In this document: positions 8,853-27,267 of the stretch, piece by piece
Layout of the letters: each line of letters begins with the position of its first letter
How positions within the stretch are numbered: the stretch's first letter is position 1
DNA from: Bacteroidales bacterium
GTDB taxonomy: Bacteria; Bacteroidota; Bacteroidia; Bacteroidales; UBA932
NCBI GenBank assembly: GCA_017471085.1
Contig: JAFUWW010000012.1
Span: forward strand, 1-54,494
Reading direction: 5' to 3'
Length of the DNA: 54,494 nt
Program-made: the position numbers and the translations under genes
The notes under the pieces: model-generated
Seen by the model: the letters and a program-made list of their open reading frames with translations, nothing else
Database searches by the model: none
What the model was told of the DNA's origin: nothing

Positions 8853-8922
8853 GGTACGGACGGGATTATTTGCTTACATATTAAAACTAAAAAATTTTAA
8901 TTAGTTAAAAGATGTAAATATG

Positions 8923-8954
8923 TTTGGTTTTATAATTAAAACTTTATACCTTTG
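8923..8954 (+). promoter_or_regulatory. Consensus promoter driving a small RNA
   Basis: TTTG (8923-8926), 20 bases, TACCTTTG (8947-8954) matches the Bacteroidota consensus exactly. No plus-strand protein gene follows; a structured segment with an intrinsic terminator does (8958-9044). Confidence 0.8.
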
Positions 8955-8957
8955 CCC

Positions 8958-9044
8958 TTGGACATCGAAGGAAACTTCATGTCTATTTGTTAAGTTCGTT
9001 TTATATACCGGAAAGCGCTCTTGGGGAGGAGCGCTTTCTTTTTT
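8958..9044 (+). ncRNA. Putative small RNA of about 87 nucleotides
   Basis: This short unit is bounded by a perfect promoter and a strong intrinsic terminator and has no coding frame. The predicted RNA starts with a hairpin: GACAT (8961-8965) and GAAG (8967-8970) pair with CTTC (8975-8978) and ATGTC (8979-8983) around a GAAA tetraloop with one bulged C. A single-stranded AU-rich middle (about 8984-9010) follows, then the terminator stem. This is the layout of a trans-acting sRNA. It sits between the GH127 and aldose-epimerase genes, suggesting a role in arabinose or glycan control; the target is unknown. Confidence 0.75.
9011..9044 (+). terminator. Rho-independent terminator of the small RNA
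   Basis: A perfect 10-bp stem GAAAGCGCTC (9011-9020) / GAGCGCTTTC (9029-9038) with an 8-base loop is followed by six T residues (9039-9044). The T-run is on the plus strand only, so it does not serve the minus-strand galM gene as a classical terminator. Confidence 0.88.
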
Positions 9045-9064
9045 GTGTTTTCTCCCATAAAGGG

Positions 9065-10210
9065 CTAGTCCAGGCCGAAGGCGAAGATGCAGTGGCTGCG
9101 GTAAGTTTCGCCGGGGCGGAGCACTGCGGAGGGCCAGTCAGGTTTGTTGGGCGTATCGGGGTAGTGCTGGGTTTCCAGGCAGATGCCGCTGCGCTGCCCG
9201 TATACAATCCCTTTCTTCCCCTTGACCGTTCCGTCCAGGAAGTTGCCGGAGTAGATCTGGATGCCGGGTTCGTCCGTATACACCTTGAGCGAAATGCCGT
9301 TCTGCGGGTTGTACAGGTAGGCGGCAATCTGGTTGATGTCTCCCTTGGTGTCCAGGACCCAGTTGTGGTCGAAACCGTTGCCGAAGCGGATCTGCTCATC
9401 GTCCTTGGTGATATTGTCGCTGATCAGATGGGCTGTCCTGTAATCGAACGGAGTGCCTTCCACGGGAACGATGGCGCCGGTTGTCATGTACGTGGCATCT
9501 ACCGGGGTATAGTTGCTGGCGTTGACATAGAGCACGTCATCCACGATCTTGTGGGTGTCCGGCATTCCCGAGAGGTTGAAATAGGAATGGTTGGTCATGT
9601 TGATGACCGTGGTCTTGTCCGTGGTGGCCTCGTACTGGATGTCGATTTTGTTGTCGTCGGTGAGGGTGTAGGTGACGAAGGCGGTCACGTTGCCGGGGAA
9701 GTTGTTGTCTCCGTCCGGCGAGAACCTCTTGAGTTTCACATGGGTGGAATCGGCCTCCACCATCTCGTATACCTGATACTGCCAGCCGGAGGGGCCTCCG
9801 TGCAGGCAATGTCCGAAGTTGTTCTTGGGCAGCTGGTAGGTGACGCCGTCCAGGGTGATCTGCCCCTGGTTGATGCGGTTGGCATACCGGCCGATGGCGG
9901 CGCCGAAGTCGCTCTGGTTGTTTTCCGGGAAGTAGTCTTCTACCTTGTCGAATCCCAGCACGACGTCGCGGCGCTTGTTTTCACGGTCCGGAACCACGAC
10001 AGAGACGATCCTGCCGCCGAAGTTGGTGACGCATACCTCCATGCCGGCCTTGTTGGCGAGCGTGTAAAGGGCGGTGGGAGCTCCGTTGTAAGTAGAATTG
10101 AAATTTTCCGGATTCAGGCCGGATGCCGTCAGGACGACATTCTCCTGTTTGGGCGTGCAGGCTGCCAGAGCAAAGGCGGCCAAAGCACAGAGAGCATATA
10201 CCTTTTTCAT
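9065..10210 (-). CDS. galM: Aldose 1-epimerase (mutarotase), lipoprotein
   Basis: The 381-residue protein has a lipoprotein signal peptide (LAAFALAAC, Cys18), so it is probably periplasmic or membrane-anchored. It shows the galactose mutarotase fold with GRYANRI (108-113), His137 in HCLHGG, the catalytic acid His208 in TNHSYFNL and the catalytic base Glu346 in CLETQHYPD. It interconverts alpha and beta anomers of aldoses. Here it would act on L-arabinose or galactose released by the neighbouring arabinofuranosidases. It is 12 bases downstream of the GH51 gene and in the same direction, so the two are an operon. Confidence 0.92.
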   Translation of the reverse strand: MKKVYALCALAAFALAACTPKQENVVLTASGLNPENFNSTYNGAPTALYTLANKAGMEVCVTNFGGRIVSVVVPDRENKRRDVVLGFDKVEDYFPENNQSDFGAAIGRYANRINQGQITLDGVTYQLPKNNFGHCLHGGPSGWQYQVYEMVEADSTHVKLKRFSPDGDNNFPGNVTAFVTYTLTDDNKIDIQYEATTDKTTVINMTNHSYFNLSGMPDTHKIVDDVLYVNASNYTPVDATYMTTGAIVPVEGTPFDYRTAHLISDNITKDDEQIRFGNGFDHNWVLDTKGDINQIAAYLYNPQNGISLKVYTDEPGIQIYSGNFLDGTVKGKKGIVYGQRSGICLETQHYPDTPNKPDWPSAVLRPGETYRSHCIFAFGLD

Positions 10211-10222
10211 ATTATAGGGTTT

Positions 10223-12193
10223 TTATTTTTCCAGGATGAAGATGTTGAAGGAGAAGGCGGGAACGGTGGTCTCCAGGCTCTGCCCTTCGCCGGTAAAGAC
10301 GAAATGCGACGGGGTGTAATGCCCGGGGTTGTCCAGCGTGTTGTCCTGATAGAGTTCCGTGGATGCGAGACGGACGCCGTCAACGGCTTTCACCACGGCT
10401 TTTTTCTTGAGGCCGGTGAAGTTGAGGTTCAGGCTGCGTTGTTCGCCGGAAGTGTTCACTACCTTAACATAGACCTTGTCGCCGTCCAGCACGGCACTGG
10501 CGAACAGGCCGCCCTGGCCTTCCGCTCCGGTGACATTGGCTCCGCCCATCGTGAGCTTCAGGGTATTGCTGCCCCGGAATTCGCCGTAGAGCTGCTGCAC
10601 ATGCCAGCTCACGGTGCGGAAACTGCGGAGATTGTCGTACCAGATGAGGTCCGGGCGCCACTGCCAGCCCTCCACGTGGGCGAACAGCGGAGCGTAGGTG
10701 GCCATCTGGACCACATCGGCATTGCGCTCGATGCCGGTCATGAACGCGGCTTCCAGGAGGGAGGCGTAGAAGTGGTTCCACTTTTTGCCGGTGGCATGGC
10801 AGGCGTATTCGCCGGCGAACACCTTGGGCCCCTTGCGGTCGTAGTTGTCGTAGCGGGCGCCCTGCGAAAGGAACCAGTCATAGGGACGGTAGAAGTGCTC
10901 GTCCACCAGGTCCGCTCCCAGCCTTTTCATCTCGGGCCACAGGTAGTCGAACTGCTTGCCTTCGGAGTCCGGGCCGCTGGAGCCGACGATCTTGATGGCG
11001 GGATAGGCGGCGCGGATGGCTTTTACGAACGGTTCCAGATGTTCCGGATACAGCGAATCCCACTGCTCGTTGCCGATGCCGATGAATTTGAGGTTGAACG
11101 GTTCCGGGTGGCCCATGTCGGCCCTGACTTTTCCCCAGGTGGAGGTGGCGGGACCGTTGGCGAATTCAATGAGGTCCAGGGCGTCCTGGATATAGGGCTG
11201 GAGTTCGTCCAGATGGACGTGGGCTTCCACGTCTTCGTTCTGGAACTGGCAGGCGAGGCCGCAGCTGAGGATGGGAAGGGGTTCGGCTCCGATTTCTTCC
11301 GACAGCTGGAAGAATTCGAAGAACCCGAGACCGTAGCTCTGGAAATAATCCGGGAAGAAGCGGTGGGGGAAGGTGTATTCCCACCGGTTTTCGTTCAGGG
11401 GGCGGTTCTCTACCGGGCCGACGGAATTTTTCCAGTTGTAGCGGGTGGCGAGGTCCGTGCCTTCCACGATGCAGCCGCCCGGGAAGCGGAATACGCCCGG
11501 GTGCAGGTCGGCCAGGGCCTGGGCCAGGTCTTTGCGGAGGCCGTTCTTATGCCCCATCCAGGTGTCTTCCGGGAACAGGGAGACATGCTCCAGGTCTACC
11601 ATTGTGCGGTTGCCGACCAGGAAAATGCGCAGGATGGCCTTGGGCTCGGTGGCATCCGGCGTAAGGGTGACCTCGTATTGTTTCCACTGGGCGCCGCCGA
11701 CCACCAGCGTTTCCTGGCAGAGGAACTGGTTTTCACCCATGGAGGCGGTATTGGCCAGTTCTATGCGGAGGGTGGAGAGGCCTCCGTCCGGTACGCGGGC
11801 CCATACGCTGAAACGGTATTTCGCTTCTTTCTGCACGCCGATGCCGAAGAAGCCCTCATTGTCCAGGCCCGTCCATTTGTGCGGATGGCCGGGGTCCGAG
11901 AGGCGTACATAGTGGGGATTGCGCTCGAAGGGGCCGTCGTTCCTCACTTCCACTTTCCCGAAAGCTTTCCAGCCCTGGAGGGCGTCGTCCGGGAATTCGA
12001 ACGAGCGGTTTTTCACCAGTTCCGCGTACAGTCCGCCGTCGGCGGCGAAGTTGATATCTTCGAAGAAAATGCCGTATTGGGTGCTCTGAATGGCAGCACC
12101 AGGCTTTTTAAGGTCGATGTCCAGCTGGTAGCTTTGGGCGAAAGCCGTGGCACTTAGGCCAAGGGCGGCCAGGAAGAGGACGATGTGTTTCAT
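10223..12193 (-). CDS. GH51 alpha-L-arabinofuranosidase with N-terminal CBM4-like domain
   Basis: The 656-residue product has a cleavable signal peptide (to AFAQ). A carbohydrate-binding-like beta-sandwich (about 65-210) is inserted after the first strand, as in long GH51 enzymes, followed by the TIM barrel and a C-terminal sandwich. The acid/base is Glu376 in IGIGNEQW and the nucleophile is Glu462 in VFAGEYA; GGCIVEG (239-245) lines the pocket. It releases alpha-1,2/1,3/1,5-arabinofuranose in the periplasm. It differs from the second GH51 at 25732 (511 residues), which lacks the inserted domain. Its promoter is fused to that of the divergent regulator. Confidence 0.93.
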   Translation of the reverse strand: MKHIVLFLAALGLSATAFAQSYQLDIDLKKPGAAIQSTQYGIFFEDINFAADGGLYAELVKNRSFEFPDDALQGWKAFGKVEVRNDGPFERNPHYVRLSDPGHPHKWTGLDNEGFFGIGVQKEAKYRFSVWARVPDGGLSTLRIELANTASMGENQFLCQETLVVGGAQWKQYEVTLTPDATEPKAILRIFLVGNRTMVDLEHVSLFPEDTWMGHKNGLRKDLAQALADLHPGVFRFPGGCIVEGTDLATRYNWKNSVGPVENRPLNENRWEYTFPHRFFPDYFQSYGLGFFEFFQLSEEIGAEPLPILSCGLACQFQNEDVEAHVHLDELQPYIQDALDLIEFANGPATSTWGKVRADMGHPEPFNLKFIGIGNEQWDSLYPEHLEPFVKAIRAAYPAIKIVGSSGPDSEGKQFDYLWPEMKRLGADLVDEHFYRPYDWFLSQGARYDNYDRKGPKVFAGEYACHATGKKWNHFYASLLEAAFMTGIERNADVVQMATYAPLFAHVEGWQWRPDLIWYDNLRSFRTVSWHVQQLYGEFRGSNTLKLTMGGANVTGAEGQGGLFASAVLDGDKVYVKVVNTSGEQRSLNLNFTGLKKKAVVKAVDGVRLASTELYQDNTLDNPGHYTPSHFVFTGEGQSLETTVPAFSFNIFILEK

Positions 12194-12230
12194 GGTATGA
12201 ATGATAATGGTTATTACTTTTAATTTCCGT

Positions 12231-12248
12231 CAAATATACGTATTTTTG
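12231..12248. promoter_or_regulatory. Symmetrical bidirectional -7 element between GH51 and the regulator gene
   Basis: The 18-base segment CAAATATACGTATTTTTG is an almost perfect palindrome (one mismatched pair). It reads TATTTTTG (12241-12248) on the plus strand and TATATTTG (12231-12238) on the minus strand, both matching TAnnTTTG. Each gene would have a 5' leader of about 15-35 bases. The -33 boxes are weak on both sides. Confidence 0.55.
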
Positions 12249-12267
12249 CCCGATAAAAGGTGGACAA

Positions 12268-15201
12268 ATGAACGCTGCTGGTGTAAAAATCATTCCAAAG
12301 TTTTTCAAAATCCTTTCATTGACGGCGCTGCTCACTGTGATGCCTGACCCGGCGCTGGCCCAGTCGTCATTTGAGGAACGTTATATCACCGTGTCCCTGG
12401 ACATGGGCCAGGGGCTTCCCTGCAGTTTCGTCGACGATGTCTACATCGACGATGCCGGCTTTCTCTGGCTGGCCACTTCCGGCGGCGGCCTGTGCCGGTA
12501 CGACGGCTATGAGCTGCTCACCTTCAACTCCTCCACCGACCCTGCCCTGGGCAGCAATTTCACGCGTTGCGTAGTAGAGGATGCTTTTCACAGGCTCTGG
12601 ATTGCGTCGGAGGGAGGCCTGGACATCCTGGACCTTCACACGCTGACGAAAGTGGACCTGGGACTTCACCTGGCAGACCAGGCTGCGTCCCCTCTGTGCT
12701 CTTTCGTAACCCTGTCGGCCGACGGCGCCGTATGGACGAAATTCGGCCCGACGCTTTTCAGGATCAGTTTCGACGAGACGGGACGTCCGCTTCCGGTGCA
12801 GTCTTTCACCCATCCCGGGCTGGACGAGGCAAATCATATCTGTGAAGACGTGAATCAGAACGGTTTGGTCTGGACCCGGCTTGACGGCGGCCTGTACAGC
12901 ATCGCTCCCGGTCCCGACGGAATCCTGGAGGCTGCGCGGGTGGCTCCTTCCCTGGACCTGGGTGAGGGTACCTATGTGTCGGACTTCCTGGTGTCCGAGT
13001 CCAGCATCTGGATCGCGACCGAAAACGGTCTTTTCCGTATATATAAAGGTACGGGCGAATGGAAACTGTACCAGTCCAGTCTGTCGGACCCCCGTTCCCT
13101 TACCCAGAATTTCGTTTCCAGCCTGGCCGTTACGGAAGACGGCCTGCTGCTGGCGTCTACGCTTCATGGCCTCAATGTCTACAATCCGGTTACCGATCAT
13201 TTCGAAAGGGTGGGCACCAGCATTATCAACTGCCTGAAGGTAAACGGAGACCATCTGCTGATAGCCACCGAGAATCAGGGCCTGAAGATGGCTGTCCCCC
13301 GGGTCCTTTATGTAAAAAACTATACGAATGTTCCCGGCAATCCCGGCTCTTTGGCGCCGGGGGCCGTGAATGCCATCTGGCAGGAGGGGGACGGACGGCT
13401 CTGGGTCGGTTCCGTGGAAGGCGGCCTCAGTGTCCGGGAACCGGGCTCGGAGGTGTTCCGCCATCTCACCCGGGAGAGGAACGGCCTTTCGCACAACAGC
13501 GTAAGCGCTCTCAGGCCTGGCCCGTCCGGGAAGATGTACGTGGGCACCTGGGGCAGCGGCATCGACGAAGTGTCGATGGACGGGCGATACAGGGTAACCG
13601 GGCACCTCCCCAATGCGGGCGGCACGATGGATTTCATCGGCGTATTGGAATACGATACCCTCAACCAGCTTCTCTGGATCGGCTCCAACCGGGGCATCTT
13701 CCTTTACGACCCTGCGCAGGGGACATTTTCTCCCGCCCTGGATGATACGGCAACCGGGTGCATCGGCTCGTGTATCGACACTCGCGGCCAGATCTGGATC
13801 GGCTGTCAGGAGGGACTTTATGTCTTCGACCTTACAAAGAAAGGGGCGGACGGGCGGTTCCCGTATGTCCATTACCGCTATAAGATGGACCAGCCGGAGT
13901 CGATGGTGGAAGAGAAAATCTGCGCCGTCATGGAAACCGCCGGCGGGGATATCTACCTGGGTAGCAACGGCGGCGGAGTCTACAGGGCGGAGCGACAGGC
14001 CGACGGGAGCTATGTTTTCCGGTCTTACTCGGCCCGTGACGGCCTTTCCAACGACCGGGTGCGCGGCTTTTGCGAGGATGAATCCGGCCAGATCTGGATC
14101 AGTACCGATTTCGGACTGAACCTGATGGACCCTGAGACCGGCATCATTACGTCTTTCCAGCAGAAAGACGGCCTGCAGAGTGTTCAGTTCCACTGGAACA
14201 ATTCTTTCAAGGGAACGGACGGGCTGCTCTATTTCGGGCATGCGCTGGGTTTCTCCGCCGTGGACCCGTCCCACCGGGCCAGCCTGGAGGGGGCCGACAG
14301 GAGGCCGATCCGCTTCACGCGCATCAGTGCCGGGGGGAAGGACCTGCTGAACCCTTATGCCTCCGATTTCAAAATGCACGAGAAAGACCGTTCCCTCCTG
14401 CTCCAGTTCACGGTCCTTACTCCTGAGGCTTCGTCCGGCATCCATTATAAATATACGCTGGAGGGATTCGACGAAGGGTGGGGGATTCTGCCTCCCGGCC
14501 GCCGTGAGGTGAATTATTCGTCACTTCCGGCGGGCCGCTACACTTTCAAAGTGCAGGCTTTCAACAGGTTCGGGCAATGGGTGGACGACCGTGCCCTGGC
14601 CATCCATGTCAGCCCTTATTATTACCATACCTGGTGGTTCATGCTGCTGCTGCTGTTTGCCGCCGCCCTGCTGGTCTGGCTCTTCTCCTCCTGGCGCACC
14701 CGTTCCATCCTCCGCCGTCAGGCCGAGCTGGAGCGTACCGTGGAAGAACGTACCCGGGAAATATCGGCCCAGAAGAAGCTGGTGGAGGAAAAGGCCGATG
14801 AGCTCCGTCACCAGAACGAGGTGCTGCTGCGTCAGAACGAAGAGCTCGCTTCGCGCAGGATGCTGAATATCCGGCAGGAAGAGGATCCTTTCAAGGGCAA
14901 GGCGCTGGATACGCTCCGGAGCCTGTACAAAAATCCCGACCTGGACGTGAACATGTTCTGCCAGGCCATGGGCATGAGCAAGACCCTGCTGAATACCCAT
15001 CTGCAGGAATCTTTCGGGCAGTCGATCGCCCAGCTCATCCGCACCTACCGGCTGGCCGTGGCCAAGGAGATGCTGGAAAACGGAAACGGGATGACTGTTT
15101 CCGAGGTGGCCTATGAAGTCGGATTCAACGATCCCAAGTATTTTACCCGCTGTTTCTCCAAAGAATTCGGCGTTACCCCCAGTTCTACCGGGAAAGCGTA
15201 G
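12268..15201 (+). CDS. Kinase-less hybrid sensor: periplasmic propellers, TM, coiled coil, AraC HTH
   Basis: The 977-residue product starts with an N-terminal signal or anchor and two seven-bladed two-component-regulator propellers (about 35-690, with repeats such as DDAGFLWLATSGGGL and DTRGQIWIGCQEGLY). A Y_Y_Y domain (about 705-785), a transmembrane helix (about 789-808) and a short coiled coil (about 815-860) follow. It ends in an AraC-type HTH (about 885-977, with VSEVAYEVGFNDPKYFTRCF). The histidine kinase, HATPase and receiver domains of a normal HTCS are absent. It would signal directly across the membrane as a one-component regulator. Context points to arabinan: it heads the operon of GH43, SusC, SusD and GH51. 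Confidence 0.9.
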   Translation: MNAAGVKIIPKFFKILSLTALLTVMPDPALAQSSFEERYITVSLDMGQGLPCSFVDDVYIDDAGFLWLATSGGGLCRYDGYELLTFNSSTDPALGSNFTRCVVEDAFHRLWIASEGGLDILDLHTLTKVDLGLHLADQAASPLCSFVTLSADGAVWTKFGPTLFRISFDETGRPLPVQSFTHPGLDEANHICEDVNQNGLVWTRLDGGLYSIAPGPDGILEAARVAPSLDLGEGTYVSDFLVSESSIWIATENGLFRIYKGTGEWKLYQSSLSDPRSLTQNFVSSLAVTEDGLLLASTLHGLNVYNPVTDHFERVGTSIINCLKVNGDHLLIATENQGLKMAVPRVLYVKNYTNVPGNPGSLAPGAVNAIWQEGDGRLWVGSVEGGLSVREPGSEVFRHLTRERNGLSHNSVSALRPGPSGKMYVGTWGSGIDEVSMDGRYRVTGHLPNAGGTMDFIGVLEYDTLNQLLWIGSNRGIFLYDPAQGTFSPALDDTATGCIGSCIDTRGQIWIGCQEGLYVFDLTKKGADGRFPYVHYRYKMDQPESMVEEKICAVMETAGGDIYLGSNGGGVYRAERQADGSYVFRSYSARDGLSNDRVRGFCEDESGQIWISTDFGLNLMDPETGIITSFQQKDGLQSVQFHWNNSFKGTDGLLYFGHALGFSAVDPSHRASLEGADRRPIRFTRISAGGKDLLNPYASDFKMHEKDRSLLLQFTVLTPEASSGIHYKYTLEGFDEGWGILPPGRREVNYSSLPAGRYTFKVQAFNRFGQWVDDRALAIHVSPYYYHTWWFMLLLLFAAALLVWLFSSWRTRSILRRQAELERTVEERTREISAQKKLVEEKADELRHQNEVLLRQNEELASRRMLNIRQEEDPFKGKALDTLRSLYKNPDLDVNMFCQAMGMSKTLLNTHLQESFGQSIAQLIRTYRLAVAKEMLENGNGMTVSEVAYEVGFNDPKYFTRCFSKEFGVTPSSTGKA

Positions 15202-15268
15202 TTTCCGGCATCGGTCAAAAATCCACCCTTTATGTTTTTTTGTACACCTTTGGGCGGATAGAAGTGTT

Positions 15269-15276
15269 TACCTTTG
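15269..15276 (+). promoter_or_regulatory. Bacteroidota -7 element for the first GH43 gene of PUL 1
   Basis: TACCTTTG matches TAnnTTTG and lies 20 bases upstream of the ATG at 15297. A TTTG at 15249-15252 is only 16 bases away, so the -33 box is not ideal, as expected if an activator is needed. Similar ACCCTTT/ACCTTT blocks 21 bases apart (from 15225 and 15246) could be an activator site. Confidence 0.5.
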
Positions 15277-15296
15277 CTTCGGTTAACCATTTTGTA

Positions 15297-16349
15297 ATGA
15301 CACTGAAGCATCTCCTGGCTACATTAGCTGCAGTTTTCGCTTTCTTTTCCGTGCAGGCACAGCCTTTCGGAAAGGCCCCGGAGTACGATCCGGCCCTTCC
15401 TCCGGCACACGACCCGGTCGCTGTCCGGTGCGATGGAACCTGGTACTTGTTCTGTACGGGCTTCGGTGTTTCCGTGTTCACATCTCCCGACCAGGTAAAC
15501 TGGACTTTCTCCGGCAGGGTCTTCGACAACCCGCCGGAATGGGCCGTGAAAAGTGTTCCCGGATACCGCGGCCATACCTGGGCCCCGGATATCCTTTTCC
15601 ACGAGGGAACCTACTATCTCTACTATTCCTGTTCTTCCTTCGGAAAGAACGACAGCGCCATCGGCGTGGCCACCAACAAGACCCTGGACCCCGCCTCCCC
15701 GGATTACAAGTGGGAAGACCATGGATGCGTGGTCCGTTCTGTGGCCGGACGCGACCTGTGGAACGCCATCGACCCGAATGTCTTCGTGGATGAGGACGGC
15801 AGCGGCTGGCTCTCTTTCGGTTCGTTCTGGGGCGGCATCAAGCTGGTGAAACTGGATGAAAGCCTTACCCGGGTGGCCGAGCCTCAGGTGTGGTTCCCGC
15901 TCTGCCGCCGTCCGGAAGGTACCGCGGAGGACACCTCCCTCACGGACAATGTCATCAAGGCCGATGCGCGCGGAAAGGATTTCGATCCCGGCAACGGAGC
16001 CGTGGAGGCTCCCTTCATCGTCCGCCGCGGCGACTATTATTATTTATTCGTAAGCTACGACCTCTGCTGCCGCGGTGCCAAGAGCACGTACAAGGTGGTG
16101 GCCGGGCGCAGCGACAGGATAACGGGCCCCTATTACGACAAGGACGGCGTCTCCCTGATGGAAGGCGGCGGCACGGTGGTGGTGTCCGGCAACGGGCGGT
16201 ATCCCGGCGTGGGACATTGCGCCGTGGTTCCTTCGGAGGGAGGGGACAAGCTCTTCTTCCACTGTTACGACAGAGACATGGACTACAACTCCCATCTGCT
16301 GGTCCGTCCCCTCCGTTGGGAAGGCGGCTGGCCGATGGCAACTTTATAA
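15297..16349 (+). CDS. GH43 arabinan endo-1,5-alpha-L-arabinanase-like enzyme
   Basis: The 350-residue exported five-bladed-propeller enzyme has a signal peptide ending at SVQAQ. The GH43 triad is clear: general base Asp39 in AHDPVAV, pKa modulator Asp159 in NAIDPNVF, general acid Glu237 in AVEAPFI; HTWAPDI is a further family marker. The best match is GH43 subfamilies 4/5, endo- or exo-arabinanases. I chose the ATG at 15297 because it begins a signal peptide and because the upstream frame overlaps the promoter. It is the first enzyme of the PUL, 95 bases after the regulator and 46 before the repeat lipoprotein. Confidence 0.9.
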   Translation: MTLKHLLATLAAVFAFFSVQAQPFGKAPEYDPALPPAHDPVAVRCDGTWYLFCTGFGVSVFTSPDQVNWTFSGRVFDNPPEWAVKSVPGYRGHTWAPDILFHEGTYYLYYSCSSFGKNDSAIGVATNKTLDPASPDYKWEDHGCVVRSVAGRDLWNAIDPNVFVDEDGSGWLSFGSFWGGIKLVKLDESLTRVAEPQVWFPLCRRPEGTAEDTSLTDNVIKADARGKDFDPGNGAVEAPFIVRRGDYYYLFVSYDLCCRGAKSTYKVVAGRSDRITGPYYDKDGVSLMEGGGTVVVSGNGRYPGVGHCAVVPSEGGDKLFFHCYDRDMDYNSHLLVRPLRWEGGWPMATL

Positions 16350-16395
16350 TAATCTAAACCAATAAATAATTAACCAACTTAAAACCAAGTGAAGC

Positions 16396-18837
16396 ATGAA
16401 AACCCGAAAATTGATGCTTTTTGCTGCTCTCGCAGCAGCGGTATCGGTGGGTTGCACCGCCTTGGAGCCCTATGAGGTGAACGCTCCGGACGATCTTGCA
16501 CAGAAGATCGCCGAGTATCAGGCCGAACAGGCAGCCAAGAACACGGACGATTACACCGAAATCACCCTTACATCGACCTTGGTGGGTGCAGAAGACAATT
16601 CCAGCGGCTGGTGGACCGAATTTAGCCAGTACTTCTCCGTCCCTCCGGGAAAGAAACTTGTCCTTGAATTTGTCAACTATGGTTCCGGTGCCAACAACTG
16701 GAACAACTGGAATGTGTGCGTGGCCAACGGCGAACGCGACGGCGACGGCTATTCCGAGTATTTCCTCCTCCGTTCCGACTGGTACGGATGGGGCAACGGC
16801 GATTATGACGGTGCCGTCATCGAATTCGACTACGGCGGCGCAGAAGTCAACTGGGACGAATTCCGCGAGAAAATGCAGGGCGCTTATGTGACCATGACCC
16901 TGGACCACGCCCGCGCCGGTGCCGCCTATCTGGAAGTGCACAGCGTTTCTCCCGACGGAATGGACATCGTGGAAAAATACAACCAGCCCGTCTCCGCAAC
17001 CAGCAATGTGAATGTGTTCCTGGTTTGCGACGGCAGCCACTTCGAAATGAAAAAGGCTTACCTGGTTCCTTCCGAAATCCAGGAAATCCCCGATTATCCT
17101 GCCGTCGGCATGACCCTCACCAACACGCCTGTAGCCGTTGCCCTTGGCAACGAGGATTATTGGGGTGAGACCGTGGCTACCGTCCATTTCGAAGACGGAT
17201 CTTCCACCGTGGTGGCTCCCGAAGACCTGTACATCGTTGAACCCGATCTCTCCACCGTGGGAACCAAGACCGTGGTCGTCTCTTACAGCAAGACCAAGCA
17301 GGGCAAGCCGGGCGATCCCGTGGCCGCCTACTATACCTTCGAGGTGACCGACTTCGCCACCATCGCCGTGACCAAGCTGCCGGTTACCACTACCTATTAT
17401 GCCTACGATCAGCCGGTTCCGTTCTATACCGAAGGTCTGGAAGTGACAGGTACCAAGTCGGACGGCTCCACCATGGTGCTTGACAACGCCGCCCTGGTAT
17501 TCGGTGCCGTACAGCCCGTTGCCGGTACGCAGGAAGTGGAGATTGAGTTCTCCGGCGTCAAGACCACCTGCCCCGTGACCGTGAAGCTGGGTACCGAGGC
17601 CATCGGAGCCCCCGACTTTACCAACGGCTGGTGGTCCACCTTCATGAGCGCCGACAAGCCCGTTCCCGCCGGCGAAAGCGCCACCGTCCATCTGTTCGTG
17701 TATTCCGACAACCTGGCCAACTGGCACAGCCCGTGCGTCATCCTTCGCAAGGCCGACCTGGATCTCGGGGCCGCCGGTGAGTATGCCGTGGTCCGCATGG
17801 ACAACTTCGGCTGGGGCGCCGGCTATGACGGAAACGCCGGTCTGGTGCTTGAAAGCGACTGGAACTTCGACCTGTTCGCGGCCAACCAGAACATGTCCGC
17901 GGTAAGCATCACCGTCACCAATAACGGTAACAATACGGCCGACATCGTGTACAATGTGACTTATGCCAACGGCGAATCCCACGTCCAGAAGTATCTGGGT
18001 GTCACTGTGGACAGCGCCGACCTCCAGATGGGCATCGTAACCGAGGAATCCTACCTCATCGTCCTGGACAAAGCGGCCGTGGACGCCAAGCTCACCGGCA
18101 TCTCCGCCGTCGCCACCGCCAACCTCGTGGGCGGCGCCAGGGTGGTCACCCTCTCCCCGGAAGCCGTCAAGGTGCTGGCAAACTACTCCGACGGTTCCTC
18201 CGTCCAGCTGGAGAGTTCCAAGGTGGAGATCGCCTTTACCGACGACAAACTGGTCTATGAGGTGACTCCCGGGACCTATGAGAATATCGCAACTGTCAAA
18301 TACACTCCCGCAGGCGGTTCCGAGCTTACCGCAAAAGCCAGCCTTATTGTGAAGGCCAGCGCTCAGGAAGGCCAGGCTACCCAGGTGGGAGCCTCCGACT
18401 TCTCCGGCGGCTGGTTCGACAACGGCTACCTCACCATCTCCAGGGACTGGACGGTGGCGGCCGGTGAAAGCCAGACCGTAAGCATGACCGTCGGCTCCGA
18501 CAATGCCGGGAACTGGCATTCTCCTTCCGTAGTCCTCCGCAAGGCCGACGGTACCGAATACCTCGTCGTCCGTCAGGACCACTTCGGCTGGGGCGGTGCT
18601 TATGAAGCCTGCGAAAAGGCCAGCAACTGGAACTGGGAAGTGTTTGCTACCAACATCAACGGCTCGAAGGTGTCCATCACCGTAGCCAATGACGGCCAGG
18701 GCAAGGCCAGCATCCGTTATGCTGTGACCGACGCCGCAGGAGACGCCCACTTCCAGTATTATGACAAGATCGATGTCGATAGCAGCGATGTCCAGTTTGC
18801 CGTGGCAACCGAGGGCGCCTATCTCATCTTCGACTAA
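16396..18837 (+). CDS. Surface lipoprotein with three copies of an unrecognised Trp-rich beta domain
   Basis: The 813-residue protein has lipobox cysteine Cys20 (AAVSVGC). It is built as repeat 1 (about 55-224), Ig-like domains (about 235-320 and 325-398), repeat 2 (about 400-558), an Ig-like domain (562-652) and repeat 3 (660-813). The repeats share GWW or GGWF, a NW(N/H) turn, an FGWG or YGWG loop and a late W(D/E)F-type motif, and end with a strand like AYLIF. Exposed tryptophans (W72, W102, W132; W412, W443, W473; W673, W707, W732) suggest carbohydrate binding. Position directly before SusC/SusD argues for a surface glycan-binding protein for arabinan. I do not recognise the repeat as a named CBM family. 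No catalytic motif is seen. Confidence 0.8.
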   Translation: MKTRKLMLFAALAAAVSVGCTALEPYEVNAPDDLAQKIAEYQAEQAAKNTDDYTEITLTSTLVGAEDNSSGWWTEFSQYFSVPPGKKLVLEFVNYGSGANNWNNWNVCVANGERDGDGYSEYFLLRSDWYGWGNGDYDGAVIEFDYGGAEVNWDEFREKMQGAYVTMTLDHARAGAAYLEVHSVSPDGMDIVEKYNQPVSATSNVNVFLVCDGSHFEMKKAYLVPSEIQEIPDYPAVGMTLTNTPVAVALGNEDYWGETVATVHFEDGSSTVVAPEDLYIVEPDLSTVGTKTVVVSYSKTKQGKPGDPVAAYYTFEVTDFATIAVTKLPVTTTYYAYDQPVPFYTEGLEVTGTKSDGSTMVLDNAALVFGAVQPVAGTQEVEIEFSGVKTTCPVTVKLGTEAIGAPDFTNGWWSTFMSADKPVPAGESATVHLFVYSDNLANWHSPCVILRKADLDLGAAGEYAVVRMDNFGWGAGYDGNAGLVLESDWNFDLFAANQNMSAVSITVTNNGNNTADIVYNVTYANGESHVQKYLGVTVDSADLQMGIVTEESYLIVLDKAAVDAKLTGISAVATANLVGGARVVTLSPEAVKVLANYSDGSSVQLESSKVEIAFTDDKLVYEVTPGTYENIATVKYTPAGGSELTAKASLIVKASAQEGQATQVGASDFSGGWFDNGYLTISRDWTVAAGESQTVSMTVGSDNAGNWHSPSVVLRKADGTEYLVVRQDHFGWGGAYEACEKASNWNWEVFATNINGSKVSITVANDGQGKASIRYAVTDAAGDAHFQYYDKIDVDSSDVQFAVATEGAYLIFD

Positions 18838-18855
18838 TCTAAAGACAGAAACAGT

Positions 18856-21800
18856 ATGAAAAAGATATTTGCAAGCGTAGCACTTTGTGGTATCCTGGCC
18901 CTCGCTCCGTCTGTCATCGGCGGCCGGAACGGTTATGTGGCCCAGGCGCAGGACAATGTTACCATCAGCGGTACGGTCGTGGATGATACTGGCGAACCGG
19001 CCCTGGGAGCAGGCGTAGTGGTGAAGGGAACCACCCTTGGTACCACCACGGACTTCGACGGCAAGTTCTCCCTTTCCGTCCCTGTAGGATCCACCATCCA
19101 GATCGTTTCCGTCGGTTACGAGACGCTGGAGATGGTAGTGACCCGCGGCGGTGACCTGGGCACCATTACCATCCAGACCGAAAACACCCTGCTGGACCAG
19201 GTGGTGGTGATCGGTTACGGTTCCCAGAAGAAGGTAGACCTCACCGGTTCGGTGGCCATCGTGGACGCCGACGAAATGAAGAAAGTATCCCATTCCAACA
19301 TCTCCACCATGCTGGAAGGCAAGGTGGCCGGTGTGCAGATTACCTCCGACGGTCAGCCCGGTGCCGACCCGGCCGTGAGAATCCGCGGTCTGGGCAGCTT
19401 CGGCAGCACCGCCCCTCTGTATGTGATCGACGGCGTGCCCATGGGTACCACCATCCGTGACTTCTCTCCGAACGACATCGAGACCATCCAGGTGCTGAAG
19501 GATGCCTCCGCAGCAGCCATCTACGGTTCCCGTGCTGCTAACGGCGTGGTGATCATCACCACCAAGGGCGGCAAGAAGAACCAGCCCATCCGGGTCGATT
19601 ATACCGGCTACATGGGTGTGGACAAGATCCGCAAGAATGTCTACAAGGTGATGAACTCCGAGCAGTACGGCGATTTCGTCCGCATGGCTTTCGAGAACAG
19701 CGGCCTGGCCGTCCCGGCCGGCTACGATCCGTCCAGCGAGAAATATGTGAACCCTGCCCAGGTCAACACCGACTGGTTTGACGCCGTGTTCAAGACCGGT
19801 ATCCGCCAGAACCACAACGTGAACCTCTCCGGCGGCGGCGAGAACAGCACCTTCAACGTGGCCCTCGACTACTTCAGCCAGCGTGGCACCATGGTGGGTG
19901 CAGGTCCCAACTACGACCGTTTCACCGCCCGTGTGAACAACACCATGGACATCAAGTTCCTCAAACTCCGCACCGGCGTGGTCTACTCCCACAGCAGCCA
20001 GGACAGCATGTCCCTTTCCAACGCCAACGAGTATGTGCAGGGCCTCTACGGCACGCAGTACCCGGTGATGGCATCGGCCCTGCTGATGCCGCCTTCCATC
20101 AAGGCCTACGACGAGAGCACCTGGTTCCTTGACAGGACCATCTCCGCCGCTTCCGAGTACAACTATGACTCCTGGGGCTTCGGTACCTATTATGATGATG
20201 TCCACGGTGACATCCGTATGACCAACCCGCTCCTGTACAACAACCTGCTGGAACGCAATACCCTGGTAGACCGCGTGGTGGCCACGGGTTCCGCCACGGT
20301 GGACCTCCTGGACATGATCGGACACAAGCTGGACAACCACAAGCTGGAGTACAACCTGAACCTGTCTTACAGCAAGACCATCGCCAAGGACTTCACTTTC
20401 GTGCCTTCCTTCATCCAGAGTACCACCAACTACCTGTCCAAGAGCAACGAGCGCCTCACCCAGGGCTATCGCAGCTATGGCGATTTCCTGGTGGAGAACT
20501 ACCTCACCTACGACGGCACCTTCGGCAAGCATCACCTGAATGCCGTGGCCGGTATGACCTTTGAGCGTGAGCTCACCCACAACCTCACCGCCTGGGGCAA
20601 CAACATGCCGGAACCTTACTTCCTGCAGGTCGGCAATGCCGCCGACCGGGACGCCAACTCCTCCGAGTTCGAGCATGTGCTGGCTTCCTACATCGGCCGT
20701 ATCACCTACGACTACGACAGCCGCTACCTCTTCCAGGCAACGGTCCGCCGGGACGGTTCCTCCCGTCTTTCCACCGGCAACCACTGGGACTGGTTCCCTT
20801 CCGCCTCCATCGGCTGGAGAATCGACAAGGAACCTTTCTTCACCGTGGATCCCAGCCTGGTGAGCCTGCTGAAACTCCGTGCCAGCTACGGTGTGCTGGG
20901 TAACGAGAACATCGGTGAATACCAGTACATGGACACCATGGCCCGCGGCAACTACACCTACAGCTTCGGCGGCAACAAGGTGACCGGTTCCTCCATCTCC
21001 AACTATGTGAATACCGGTATCCACTGGGAGAAGAAGAAGACCCTGGACATCGGTCTGGACTACGCCATGTTCGGCGGCGCCCTCGAGGTCAATGTCGATT
21101 ACTACAACGCCCTCTCCGAGGACCTGCTCTACAGCGTGCCCGTCCCTGCGGAGGCCGGCGCCACCAACGAGACCGTCACCATGAACGCCGCTTCCATGCG
21201 CAACACCGGCCTTGAACTCTCCGCTTCCTACCGCAATTACAAGAACGCCTTCAAGTATGAGTTCTCCGGCAACGTGACCTTCCCCAAGAACACCGTCCTT
21301 TCCCTGGGACCTTCCGGCGAATCCCGCAACGACGGATTCACCCGCACCGAGATCGGCGCCGAAGTGGGCCGTTTCTACGGTTATGTGTACGAAGGCATCT
21401 TCCAGAGTCAGGAAGAGATTGACAACCGCGTGAACGACAAGGGCGACTATGTGGTCCAGAACGGTGCCCAGCCCGGCGACGTGGCCTACAAGGACATCAA
21501 CAACGACGGTATCGTGAACTCCGACGACCAGACCTTCATCGGCAGCGGCATGGCCAAGGTACAGTTCGGTCTCAGCGCCCGCTTCGAGTACAAGAACTTC
21601 GACCTCAGCATCTCCTCCTTCGGTGCCGCCGGATACCAGCTTCTGGACTTCGTGGACATGACCCTGCGCAGCTCCTACGGCATGACCAACCGCAGCGTGG
21701 ACCTGCTCAACGCCTGGACTCCGTCCAACACCAACACCAACGTGCCCCGCGTGTACTACAAGTCCACCGGCTCCATCACCAATGACATGTTCAGTTCCCG

Positions 21801-22053
21801 CTATCTGCAGAACGGAGCCTACTGGAAGATCGCCAATGTGGAATTCGGCTACAACCTGCCCGACGGTATCTTCGGCGAAAACGCATTCGTGAAGGGCGGC
21901 CGTATCTATGTGTCCGGCCAGAACCTCCTCACCATCAGCCCGTACAGAGGTTACAACATCGACTTCGCCGGCGGCGCTTTCACCCCGGGTTACAACTATT
22001 GCTCCTATCCGGCTCCTACCACCGTGATGCTGGGTGTCAAGCTTTCCTTCTAA
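18856..22053 (+). CDS. SusC-type TonB-dependent outer-membrane transporter (PUL 1)
   Basis: The 1065-residue product has a signal peptide, an N-terminal carboxypeptidase-regulatory-like domain (from VTISGTVVDDTGEPALGAGV), a TonB-interaction segment (DQVVVIGYGSQKKVDLTGSV), a plug domain (with RIRGLGSFGSTAPLYVIDGV) and a 22-strand barrel ending in the aromatic-terminal strand VMLGVKLSF. It imports oligosaccharides captured by SusD. It starts 18 bases after the repeat lipoprotein gene and is followed immediately by susD, the canonical arrangement. The expected substrate is arabinan oligosaccharide, inferred from the enzymes around it. Confidence 0.95.
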   Translation: MKKIFASVALCGILALAPSVIGGRNGYVAQAQDNVTISGTVVDDTGEPALGAGVVVKGTTLGTTTDFDGKFSLSVPVGSTIQIVSVGYETLEMVVTRGGDLGTITIQTENTLLDQVVVIGYGSQKKVDLTGSVAIVDADEMKKVSHSNISTMLEGKVAGVQITSDGQPGADPAVRIRGLGSFGSTAPLYVIDGVPMGTTIRDFSPNDIETIQVLKDASAAAIYGSRAANGVVIITTKGGKKNQPIRVDYTGYMGVDKIRKNVYKVMNSEQYGDFVRMAFENSGLAVPAGYDPSSEKYVNPAQVNTDWFDAVFKTGIRQNHNVNLSGGGENSTFNVALDYFSQRGTMVGAGPNYDRFTARVNNTMDIKFLKLRTGVVYSHSSQDSMSLSNANEYVQGLYGTQYPVMASALLMPPSIKAYDESTWFLDRTISAASEYNYDSWGFGTYYDDVHGDIRMTNPLLYNNLLERNTLVDRVVATGSATVDLLDMIGHKLDNHKLEYNLNLSYSKTIAKDFTFVPSFIQSTTNYLSKSNERLTQGYRSYGDFLVENYLTYDGTFGKHHLNAVAGMTFERELTHNLTAWGNNMPEPYFLQVGNAADRDANSSEFEHVLASYIGRITYDYDSRYLFQATVRRDGSSRLSTGNHWDWFPSASIGWRIDKEPFFTVDPSLVSLLKLRASYGVLGNENIGEYQYMDTMARGNYTYSFGGNKVTGSSISNYVNTGIHWEKKKTLDIGLDYAMFGGALEVNVDYYNALSEDLLYSVPVPAEAGATNETVTMNAASMRNTGLELSASYRNYKNAFKYEFSGNVTFPKNTVLSLGPSGESRNDGFTRTEIGAEVGRFYGYVYEGIFQSQEEIDNRVNDKGDYVVQNGAQPGDVAYKDINNDGIVNSDDQTFIGSGMAKVQFGLSARFEYKNFDLSISSFGAAGYQLLDFVDMTLRSSYGMTNRSVDLLNAWTPSNTNTNVPRVYYKSTGSITNDMFSSRYLQNGAYWKIANVEFGYNLPDGIFGENAFVKGGRIYVSGQNLLTISPYRGYNIDFAGGAFTPGYNYCSYPAPTTVMLGVKLSF

Positions 22054-22069
22054 GATGTCCAACCTGAAA

Positions 22070-23860
22070 ATGAACAAGATGATGAAAAAGATAACGATTG
22101 TTCTGGCAACCCTCGCGGTCATCGGCTCCATGGCTTCCTGCGAAAAGGCACTGGATGTCAAGAACCCGAACAACCAGACCACCTTCGACTTCGGCTATAC
22201 CGAGTCAGACCTGAACGAGGCGCTCATCGCCTGCTATAACAGAATCCGCCTGGAAGGCACCTACGCCCGTGTCGGATATACGCTGGACGCTGTCCGCGGC
22301 GACGAGGTGTGGAACTCCTCCCAGCAGTGGTACCTGCCCTATGACAACCTGAATTCCAACGGCCAGATTGACATCGGCGACCAGTGGCCGTGGAGAGACA
22401 ACTTCCACGTGGTGAACCGCTGCAACCTGGTGCTCTCCCGCATCCAGGGCATGGAAGAGATCAACGAAAACATCCTGGACATCCAGGCCCAGGCCCTGTT
22501 CCTCCGTTCCCTGGCCTATTACACCCTGGCCACCTACTACCAGACCGTGCCGCTGTTCATAGACTATGAGCAGTACTCTTCCATCGAGTCGATGTACGCC
22601 GAGAACGTGAGCCAGGACGAGGTGCTGGACCAGGTGGAGAAGGATCTCCAGACGGCCATGACCACCCTTCCCAGCCGCGATGCCGGCGGTGAGTGGGCCA
22701 CCGGCCGTGCCACCTGCGGCGCAGCCGCCGGCTACTATGCCCGCGTGCTGATGTTCCGCCACAAGTATGACGAAGCCCTCACCGTGCTGAAGGACATCAT
22801 TGACGGAAAATACGGCCATTACCAGCTCATGCGCGACTACGGCGACAACTTCCGTGAAGGCGTGAACTACGAGAACAATGCCGAGAGCCTGTTCGAGGTC
22901 CAGTTCCTGGACTACGGCATGGGCGGTTCCGACGAGGAATGGACCCCGGTGAACATCTCCACCAACGCCACCCAGGGCCATGCCGTGGAATCCAACTACG
23001 GTTCCCAGGAACTGGGCAGCTGGGGTGACCTGGCCGCTTCTCCCTGGCTGTACAACCTGTTCAAGGCCGAGCGCTGCACCGACGGTACCCTGGATCCGCG
23101 CCTGTACTGGACCATCGTCACTTACGAGCCCGAATACAGCGCCTATACGGGTACTACCAACGCCGCTTACCCGAACGGCGGCGACCCCCGCTCCAACGTT
23201 GTCTACATGCAGGAAATCACCCAGACTCCCCGCTCCAACAACACCCAGGGCGGCATGTCCATCGCCAAGTTCACCAACGCCCGCAACAACATCTACCAGA
23301 GCATCGTGACCGGTCTGCACTGCGGTGTCAACCTCCGCCTGATGCGCTACTCCGACGTGCTGCTGCGCGCCGCCGAGTGCATCAACGAGCTGCAGGGACC
23401 TACCGCCGAGGCCATCGAGTACATCAACATCGTACGCCGCCGCGCCGGTCTCAAGGACCTTGCGCTGGCCGATTTCGCCGGCAATGCCGACAAGCTCTTC
23501 GAGCAGATCGCCAATGTGGAGCGTCCGAAGGAATTCGGCTGCGAGAACGGACGTGGCATCGACCTCATCCGCTGGGGCTTCTTCTACGACAGCGGCCGTC
23601 TCGACCAGATCAAGCAGCACAGCTGCTACATGCTGGATACGGCCGAGGGCTCCCCGGTTTCCACCCAGGAACTGACGGTGGCCACCGCTTCCGACTACTC
23701 TTACAGGTATTACACGCCGGGCTTCGAGTACTTCCCGATTTACCAGGGTACCCGCAATGCCAACCAGAACATCCACGGCAACTCCGCCAACACCAACACC
23801 GACAACGGCCCTGAATTCATCCAGAAGTACGGCCGGGTGCATCCGGTGACGGCCCTGTAG
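22070..23860 (+). CDS. SusD-family surface glycan-binding lipoprotein (PUL 1)
   Basis: About 596 residues. The signal peptide ends in the lipobox VIGSMASC. Typical SusD/RagB features are the early GYTESDLNEALIACYNRIR helix, TPR-like helices with AQALFLRSLAYYTLATYYQT and the C-terminal segment with MRYSDVLLRAAECINELQ. It forms the lid of the SusC transporter. The start is ambiguous: ATGs at 22055, 22070, 22079 and 22082 are all in frame just after the SusC stop, and any of them leaves the signal peptide intact. Confidence 0.94.
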   Translation: MNKMMKKITIVLATLAVIGSMASCEKALDVKNPNNQTTFDFGYTESDLNEALIACYNRIRLEGTYARVGYTLDAVRGDEVWNSSQQWYLPYDNLNSNGQIDIGDQWPWRDNFHVVNRCNLVLSRIQGMEEINENILDIQAQALFLRSLAYYTLATYYQTVPLFIDYEQYSSIESMYAENVSQDEVLDQVEKDLQTAMTTLPSRDAGGEWATGRATCGAAAGYYARVLMFRHKYDEALTVLKDIIDGKYGHYQLMRDYGDNFREGVNYENNAESLFEVQFLDYGMGGSDEEWTPVNISTNATQGHAVESNYGSQELGSWGDLAASPWLYNLFKAERCTDGTLDPRLYWTIVTYEPEYSAYTGTTNAAYPNGGDPRSNVVYMQEITQTPRSNNTQGGMSIAKFTNARNNIYQSIVTGLHCGVNLRLMRYSDVLLRAAECINELQGPTAEAIEYINIVRRRAGLKDLALADFAGNADKLFEQIANVERPKEFGCENGRGIDLIRWGFFYDSGRLDQIKQHSCYMLDTAEGSPVSTQELTVATASDYSYRYYTPGFEYFPIYQGTRNANQNIHGNSANTNTDNGPEFIQKYGRVHPVTAL

Positions 23861-23880
23861 TATTTGAACGGCAAATTGAT

Positions 23881-23888
23881 TATCTTTG
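23881..23888 (+). promoter_or_regulatory. Possible internal promoter before the surface GH43
   Basis: TATCTTTG matches the -7 consensus. The nearest TTTG (23863-23866) is only 14 bases upstream, so strength is uncertain. It would give the GH43-GH51 pair expression separate from susCD. Confidence 0.4.
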
Positions 23889-23920
23889 CGGGGACGGCGG
23901 CCCGGTGTCTCCGTCCCCGC
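23888..23920 (+). promoter_or_regulatory. GC-rich hairpin between susD and GH43
   Basis: A perfect 10-bp stem GCGGGGACGG (23888-23897) / CCGTCCCCGC (23911-23920) has a 13-base loop. No T-run follows, so it is not a classical terminator. It may protect the 3' end of the susCD message or reduce read-through into the enzymes. Confidence 0.55.
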
Positions 23921-23934
23921 ATAATTAACGGAAC

Positions 23935-25728: not shown

Positions 25729-25731
25729 CTT

Positions 25732-27267
25732 ATGAAAAAGACCATTGCGATTGTCGCGGCGCTTGCCGTGACGGCGGGCGCCTGGGCCCAGGTGAAAGTC
25801 TCCGTGCATGAGACCGCCAAGGACCAGCCTGTGATTCCGGCCGAGATCTACGGCCAGTTCTCCGAACATCTGGGACGATGCATCTACGAAGGTATCTGGG
25901 TGGGCCCCGGCTCCTCCATCCCCAATGTCGACGGCTACCGGACCGATGTGCTGGAAGCCCTCAAAGCCCTCAAGGTGCCCGTGCTCCGCTGGCCCGGCGG
26001 CTGCTTCGCCGACGAGTACCACTGGATGGACGGCATCGGCCCCAAGGAGAACCGCCCCAAGCTGGTGAACAACAACTGGGGCAGTACCATTGAGGACAAT
26101 TCCTTCGGCACGCATGAGTTCCTGAACCTGTGCGAGATGCTGGGTACCCAGCCGTACATCAGCGGCAACGTGGGCTCCGGCACCGTGGAGGAACTGGCCA
26201 AATGGGTGGAATACATGACCGCCGAGAACGGGTCGATGGCCGAGCTCCGCGCCAGGAACGGTCGCAAGGAGCCCTGGAAGGTGAAATATCTGGGCGTCGG
26301 CAATGAAAGCTGGGGCTGCGGCGGCGACATGACGGCCGATTATTATTCGGACGTTTACAAGCGCTATGCCCTCTACTCCCGCAACTACAGCGGCAATACG
26401 CTCTTCAAGGTGGCCTGCGGCGCCTCCGACTACGACTACAACTGGACCCGCACCATGATGAAGAACGCCGCCTCCAAGATGGACGGCCTGTCCCTGCACT
26501 ATTACACCTGCAAGGGCTGGACGGGCAGCAAAGGCTCCGCCACGGATTTCACGTCCGAAGAGTACTACAACACCCTGGCCAAGTCCGTGGAGATTGACGA
26601 GGTCCTCCGCAACCACGAGGCCATCATGGACGCCTTCGACCCGGAGCGGCGCGTAGCCCTGCTGCTGGACGAATGGGGAACCTGGTTCGATTCGGAGCCC
26701 GGCTTCAATCCCGGCCATCTGTATCAGCAGAACACCATGCGCGACGCCATGGTGGCCGCCCTGTCGCTGAACATCTTCAACAAGCACACCGCCCGCCTTC
26801 GGATGGCCAACATCGCCCAGGTGGTGAACGTGCTGCAGGCCATGATCCTCACCGACGGTCCCCGGATGCTCCTTACGCCCACCTACCACGTGTTCCGCAT
26901 GTACAATGTGCATCAGAACGCCACGGCGGTACCGGTCGATTACAGCTGCGGTACCCTGGTCAGCGCCGAAGGCCGTGTGATGGAGAATTTCAGCGTATCG
27001 GCCTCCCGCGATGCCGCCGGCGTGCTCCATGTGTCCCTTGCCAACCCCCAGCTGGAAAAGCCTGTGGCCGTGGAACTGGCCCTCGACGAGCTCAAGCCCG
27101 GGAGCGTGACCGGTGAAATCCTCCAGGCCGCCAGGATCAACGCCTACAACGACTTTGGCAAAGCCCCCGAGGTGGCTCCCGCCGCCTTCACGGGCGCCAG
27201 GCTCTCCGGAAAAACCGTCAAACTGACCCTCCCCGCCGCCTCCGTAGTGGTCCTGGAGGTCCGTTAG
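25732..27267 (+). CDS. GH51 alpha-L-arabinofuranosidase (short form)
   Basis: The 511-residue product has a signal peptide (to AWAQ), a TIM barrel and a C-terminal beta-sandwich without an inserted binding domain. The acid/base is Glu192 in [11 protein letters not shown], the nucleophile is Glu314 in LLLDEWGTW, and [13 protein letters not shown] (86-98) is the conserved substrate-binding stretch. This is the classical intracellular-type GH51 sequence with a signal peptide, so it acts in the periplasm on arabino-oligosaccharides. It is the last gene of the PUL 1 operon, three bases after GH43 and followed by a palindromic terminator-like element. Confidence 0.94.

Follow-up and report, generated by a model that had tools for sequence, protein, structure and literature searches.

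Small RNAs (sRNAs) of Bacteroidota are known mostly from Bacteroides thetaiotaomicron, in the contexts of glycan use, bile and drug stress. In E. coli, the gene of the sRNA SgrS lies beside those of the regulator SgrR and the sugar transporter SetA; the seed of another sRNA, GcvB, is unpaired, conserved and GU-rich. According to the available text of two reports, GcvB is a single sRNA of enterobacteria and Vibrio that acts on many amino-acid genes (PMC9409037, PMC11878033). The FopS sRNAs of B. thetaiotaomicron, as given in the available part of their report, are about 65-70 nt long, comprise 14 paralogues, mostly target susC mRNAs, which they repress, and are bound by the Bacteroides protein RbpB (PMC11697453).

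Here, we analyzed a stretch of 54,494 nucleotides of Bacteroidales DNA (the window), in which an RNA of about 85 nt is predicted on the + strand at 8960..9044 from its fold, its score with a model of the family and covariation. To judge from the available text (PMC11697453), it resembles FopS and GibS in being a Bacteroidales small RNA with a canonical Bacteroides promoter, a single-stranded seed, an intrinsic terminator and pairing with initiation regions (predicted here). As far as that source describes them, FopS sRNAs have a 5' single-stranded stretch, another seed sequence and paralogues, whereas the window RNA has a 5' hairpin before the seed, usually occurs in one copy and has predicted amino-acid targets. 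The initial annotation of the locus had likened the RNA to known PUL-linked sRNAs of Bacteroides, a kinship that found no support in Rfam, where it scored 16.3 bits against GibS (cut-off 115) and 19.5 bits against rteR (cut-off 72) and is thus a member of neither family. P. gingivalis PG_RS02100 was also rejected as a relative, being, in the available part of its source, a 429-nt transcript of other design.

In theme, GcvB is the closest known system, by virtue of an amino-acid regulon that is predicted here from one genome (8 of 20 targets against 1 of 19 controls). The two RNAs are unrelated by Rfam score (16.3 bits against a GcvB cut-off of 42; not a member), and the putative seed is AU-rich here but GU-rich in GcvB. 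The locus is also reminiscent of SgrS in that the sRNA gene lies beside regulator and sugar-transporter genes; unlike in SgrS, these neighbours are of the AraC type and FucP/GluP-like, are found at some loci only and are not predicted targets. The RNA probably represents a new family of trans-acting sRNAs that would repress amino-acid biosynthesis at translation.

Organization of the sRNA gene

Two elements of a Bacteroidota-type promoter could be read from the + strand, a -33 element TTTG (8923..8926) and a -7 element TACCTTTG (8947..8954) of the form TAnnTTTG. Among the 68 family members with enough upstream sequence, TAnnTTTG stands 3-5 bases 5' of the hairpin in 67, and the -33 TTTG is found at about the window's spacing in 55. 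A sigma70-type scan, whose model does not cover Bacteroidota-type promoters, returned no promoter. Just 5' of the -33 element ends a dyad without assigned strand, TTACAT...ATGTAA (8874..8917). Eight of 68 members, the window among them, have a dyad of the form T[TA]ACA-N25..42-TGTAA placed at -84 to -86 relative to the start of the RNA; it may be regarded as a possible operator, as a candidate only.

The RNA itself is predicted to begin with a 5' hairpin of 10 pairs closed by a GAAA loop (8960..8984, + strand; GGACAU-C-GAAG-GAAA-CUUC-AUGUCU). It is followed by an AU-rich linker (8984..9008, + strand), the proposed target-pairing region, which is unpaired in the predicted fold except for its first base and contains the invariant core UUAAGUUCGUUUUAU (8990..9004, + strand). 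An intrinsic terminator with a U-run closes the unit (9010..9044, + strand; stem 9010-9039, T-run 9039-9044) and carries an apical UUGGGGA (9021..9027, + strand); it was the one terminator found by a scan of the region, with 0.7 expected in shuffles. Folding of the RNA gave two hairpins and an open linker at -31.5 kcal/mol (z = -5.4), which none of 200 shuffles equalled, and the RNA scored 99.8 bits with model R1, built from the window RNA and five relatives.

An open frame on the + strand of the RNA, ATG TCT ATT TGT TAA, has four codons, and 8 of 69 members do not keep it intact, in agreement with the initial claim of no coding capacity. At the level of sequence, the locus therefore has its own promoter, an intrinsic terminator and no coding capacity, as expected of a trans-encoded sRNA. 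The consensus promoter, GAAA hairpin, AU-rich single strand and intrinsic terminator of the initial annotation could all be read where it had placed them, and its single transcription unit stands, with a predicted length of about 85 rather than 87 nt. By itself this composite of promoter, hairpin, linker and terminator is suggestive; it is the comparison with relatives that makes the sRNA gene firm.

Covariation of the stems and an invariant core

In an alignment of 70 distinct rows (A6), 95.7% of stem cells are paired and 19 of 23 pairs show two-sided changes; this alignment still contains three weak rows (L159-L161) that were rejected as members, since they look like gene ends with a terminator. 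Changes on both sides were seen in 8 of the 10 pairs of the 5' hairpin (94.9% and 89.2% of cells paired in helices 1 and 2, respectively) and in 11 of the 13 pairs of the terminator stem. The covariation score was 0.645, against 0.245 for shuffled alignments (0 of 500 reached it) and at most 0.163 for slid-partner controls. Fitting of the alignment to the covariance model favours the structure somewhat, and the effect is still far above the slid controls. The conserved RNA structure expected of a trans-encoded sRNA was thus found, with covariation far beyond both kinds of control, and the stems, whose lack of conservation would have told against the initial annotation, proved to covary. With 228 G-U but 28 A-C cells in the stems, the structured strand is the + strand.

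A second alignment (A7, 69 rows) omits L159-L161, L100, whose letters are identical to L083, and L157, which is cut off. In it, the 15 linker bases UUAAGUUCGUUUUAU are unchanged in 69 of 69 sequences. Even in the nearest relative (L007 in genome G001), both stems are altered and the linker is unchanged. UUGGGGA of the terminator loop is kept in 67 of 69 members, although a terminator can work without a fixed loop sequence. Translation starts showed no enrichment of the complement of UUGGGGA, and the loop was therefore rejected as a second seed.

On comparison of relatives, this is a structured RNA gene with a fixed unpaired core, widespread in one genus. Its promoter in 67 of 68 members, its fold and the family-wide covariation all bear out the original proposal of a stand-alone small RNA gene.

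Distribution of the RNA family

Of the 101 genomes sampled from the genus of the nearest relative, 61 gave strong matches (≥58 bits) to a six-member covariance model (64 at E 0.001, of which three had weak matches and were excluded), and so did 3 of 393 sampled genomes of its order, with five further weak matches excluded. A second model of 69 members gave strong matches in 103 of 398 sampled genomes of its family (107 at E 0.01, of which four with weak matches only were excluded). Weak matches here are those of 25-33 bits. These fractions are lower bounds, since each larger group was only sampled and many of the genomes are probably incomplete. A pattern made from the linker alone recovered the RNA in 3 of 5 genomes and then in 9 of 149 genomes of G001's family, with none for a reversed control pattern.

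As a rule, each genome carries one strong copy. Two were found in G612, one of them at a contig end, and in G817 (G817:C29:48756 and G817:C19:37883), where they reflect either a true duplication or a mixed assembly. Viral contigs contained no exact match to a 22-base core pattern, and plasmids gave no blastn match to the RNA. No Rfam family reached its cut-off across the window, and a permissive scan of 8900-9070 gave low scores only; the best of these, BjrC1505, ncr1015 and rteR, were all far below cut-off and were rejected. Among the papers searched, none contained the core sequence in any of four spellings, and no description of this RNA was found. We therefore regard the RNA, which has no Rfam match, as a new family of the trans-acting sRNA kind.

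Prediction of targets in one genome

Targets were predicted in G618, a nearly complete genome, of which 2.23 Mb were taken (12 contigs; 2.36 Mb in all). A simple open-frame and start model called 1742 genes with home-made starts, and duplex energies were calculated between the linker and the start regions (-35..+15) of this one genome. At ≤-15 kcal/mol, 22 of the 1742 starts paired with the linker, whereas 120 dinucleotide-shuffled linkers gave a mean of 5.0 (sd 3.7, maximum 15; 0 of 120 as high) and the reversed linker gave 5. At -10 and -12 kcal/mol, the linker was not above shuffles in G618 (24 and 19 of 120 as high, respectively). For exact words at G618 starts compared with 300 shuffles, k = 7 and 8 were not significant and k = 9, 10 and 11 were marginal (14, 12 and 9 shuffles as high). 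Translation starts are AT-rich. In the best 22 duplexes, pairing peaks at linker bases 11-17 (8994-9000), which take part in 20-21 of them; 14 span the ATG and 8 stop before it.

Twenty of the top 30 targets were scanned against NCBIfam, and eight proved to be amino-acid biosynthesis enzymes: cysK, asnB, lysA, argC, carB, argH and gltD, all above a curated cut-off, together with an argG-like fusion that scored below it. Four of these matches (carB, argG-like, argC and argH) lie in one arg/carB cluster. asnA and ilvB, named separately from the 20 scanned, are also among the top 30. As controls, 20 proteins (uncut, <1100 aa) were taken from the two best matches of random shuffles, and one was dropped because the real list contained it as well. 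Only 1 of the remaining 19, a PatB-type C-S lyase, has a link to amino-acid metabolism (8/20 versus 1/19, Fisher p = 0.012).

An antisense pattern of the linker with ≤3 mismatches found 16 RNA genes and, in 16 genomes, 22 further matches; a control pattern had 15. An open-frame ATG lay within 15 bases in 13 of the 15 antisense matches inspected (7 more had no locus), the inspection covering the antisense pattern only. As starts are AT-rich, we did not rely on this proximity, and the shuffle and orthologue tests were used instead.

Comparison of orthologues with and without the RNA

The starts of asnA, asnB, cysK and ilvB were compared between genomes of the family that carry the RNA and genomes that lack it, each start against 200 shuffled linkers. 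Outside G618, 36 RNA-bearing starts had a median z of -1.7 and 20 RNA-less starts one of -0.15 (p = 0.0011). When the cysK start of G101 was left out, as it had already been met in the pattern search, the difference remained (35 versus 20 starts; rank test p = 0.0016), and z was ≤-2 in 15 of 35 RNA-bearing but 1 of 20 RNA-less starts. These statistics ignore kinship, the RNA-less genomes being other branches. Averaged per genome (12 versus 8), the difference was not significant (p = 0.10); therefore species, not single starts, are still too few.

Taken gene by gene, cysK alone was nominally significant (0.02; 0.033 without G101), with ilvB at 0.064, asnB at 0.089 and asnA at 0.26. Strong pairing was seen for cysK in G101 (z = -6.9), G743 (-4.3) and G602 (-3.7), for asnA in G556 (-4.8), G753 (-4.5), G123 (-4.2) and G743 (-4.2), for asnB in G775 (-3.5) and for ilvB in G101 (-3.3). 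G775 has two asnA genes (L342 and L353), with z of -2.0 and -4.3. The cysK sites of G743, G602 and G618 vary in position and sequence between species, the same linker being paired. No linker site was found at asnA in G557, G582, G134, G806 (start uncertain) and G101, at asnB in G602, G123, G556 and G553, at ilvB in G602, G556 and G553, or at cysK in G557, G775 and G806. The asnA genes of G557, G582 and G134, which are without a site, have about 62% identity to that of G618. The RNA-less G011 has a cysK start that pairs fairly well (z = -2.45). In several RNA-bearing genomes, one or more of asnA, asnB, cysK and ilvB, up to all four, went without a match (assemblies may be incomplete), so that other roles for the RNA are to be expected there. 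Overall, one genome, and in part the orthologues, support base pairing between the core and translation starts, with an amino-acid theme.

The strongest rival explanation accepts a real sRNA and takes the linker as a platform for a protein, such as one of the RRM type, or as a sponge, so that complementarity to starts would be a by-product of AT-rich composition. A core of 15 bases without change in 69 members is very strict for a seed, and the fixation of UUGGGGA, with no enrichment of its complement at starts, points the same way, as do the non-significant per-genome test and the binding of FopS sRNAs by RbpB in the available text (PMC11697453). Composition would not, however, be expected to yield the amino-acid theme or the per-start orthologue result, and not one of the 120 dinucleotide-shuffled linkers equals the real one at ≤-15 kcal/mol. 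We consider this explanation possible but rather unlikely.

Genomic neighbourhood of the sRNA gene

At 89 loci with flanks of mostly 1.5-3 kb, the analysis took in the nearest two open frames to either side of the RNA gene; neighbour counts are lower bounds, and G612 was counted twice. An AraC-type regulator is near the RNA gene in 33 of the 89 loci (family named on three members), a FucP/GluP-like permease in 28 (named on three members, below curated cut-offs) and a ROK-family sugar kinase in 10 (named on one member, below the curated cut-off). A TonB-dependent-receptor-like gene is a near upstream neighbour in 14 of the 89 (two members scanned; for example, L088 1669-3027 and L090 1658-3025). 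The frequent neighbours are not predicted targets, their median z being -0.5 to 0.1.

The initial annotation had read the placement of the RNA beside GH127 and galM as a sign of control over glycan use. A PUL-linked sRNA for arabinose or arabinan use would fit the window, where the gene lies between GH127 and galM and beside alpha-L-arabinofuranosidase, regulator and arabinanase genes, and would fit the repression of susC mRNAs by FopS, as far as the available text goes (PMC11697453). An arabinan-type PUL occupies 10223-27267 and comprises an arabinofuranosidase, a regulator with propeller repeats and an AraC-type domain, a SusC-like protein and an arabinanase. Across the family, galM lies no more than about 1.6 kb away in 4 of 89 loci (the window, G001, L102 and L175) but GH127 in only 2 (the window and G001), and among the best 80 GH127 loci the RNA is present only in L007 (86% protein identity). 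In L102 and L175, galM lies near the RNA gene without GH127. Nor did the expected pairing with susC-type starts appear, as the linker has no notable complementarity to the starts of 32 open frames in the window: z was +0.9 for SusC (18856), -0.8 for a SusC-sized frame of 1051 aa (40814), +0.2 for GH127 and +0.25 for galM, and the best value, -2.0, belonged to the frame after susC (22034). A dedicated arabinose or arabinan sRNA is thus, in our view, very improbable. With GH127 and galM in so few loci, the arabinose setting says little about function and, judged from these neighbourhoods, is incidental to the RNA. Sugar genes are still common company, and as sugar permease genes are frequent neighbours, the RNA may have a wider role in sugar response.

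We give similarly little credence to the idea that the RNA acts in cis on the downstream gene, as a leader or attenuator, or that it is antisense to the galM-GH127 message. A same-strand permease gene lies downstream in 25 of 89 loci, with a gap of roughly 50-250 bases, as a leader would require, and the window RNA lies opposite the galM-GH127 intergenic region, as an antisense RNA would. Against a leader, no same-strand permease follows in the other 64 loci, the next gene in the window is on the other strand, 9 of the 25 permease gaps have a TAnnTTTG of their own (17 of 25 if TAnnTTT is allowed), and the linker is fixed while neighbours vary. A coding leader NTG-Ser-Ile-Cys-stop across the hairpin and linker has a negligible probability, since the in-frame NTG (N being A, G or T), the three codons after it and the TAA seen in 61 of 69 members fall on bases already constrained by stem pairing and the core, of which the tetrapeptide frame is a by-product, start or frame is broken in the other 8, and the core runs eleven bases past the stop.

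Proposed mechanism

We slightly favour a trans-acting base-pairing sRNA of one uncultured Bacteroidales family, which would pair chiefly with mRNA starts of amino-acid biosynthesis genes and most likely block ribosome entry. Judging from sequence and covariation, the Bacteroidota-type promoter would start transcription at or near the 5' hairpin and the intrinsic terminator would end it. The hairpin and terminator may guard the ends of the RNA, leaving the invariant open linker as the putative seed. According to the statistical evidence above, this seed is predicted to pair with the initiation regions of cysK, asnA, asnB, ilvB, lysA, gltD and the arg/carB cluster. Pairing there would most likely block ribosome entry; repression is proposed by analogy with FopS, because the duplex test covered start regions only. 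More speculatively, the AraC-type regulator and the glucose/galactose-like permease with ROK kinase nearby suggest that sugar supply may drive transcription of the sRNA.

A bolder version, which we put forward tentatively, would make this RNA the master amino-acid sRNA of a whole genus of uncultured Bacteroidales from gut and rumen. Its 15-base seed would shut off cysteine, asparagine, arginine, lysine, branched-chain, glutamate and nitrogen-assimilation genes at translation; the gene, often by a sugar-uptake locus, may report on that locus, so that carbon supply would be tied to nitrogen anabolism. No such regulator was found for these bacteria in the literature searched.

Implications

The genus carrying the RNA family is, we presume, Candidatus Cryptobacteroides. 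Uncultured species thus share an RNA family without an Rfam match, found in at least 103 of their sampled genomes, and its seed is so fixed that targets become predictable and testable. If the amino-acid regulon is true, the RNA would be a Bacteroidota counterpart of GcvB, unrelated to it in sequence, with a regulon that is unusual for Bacteroidota, and it would offer a way into the nitrogen economy of uncultured bacteria that are common in the gut.
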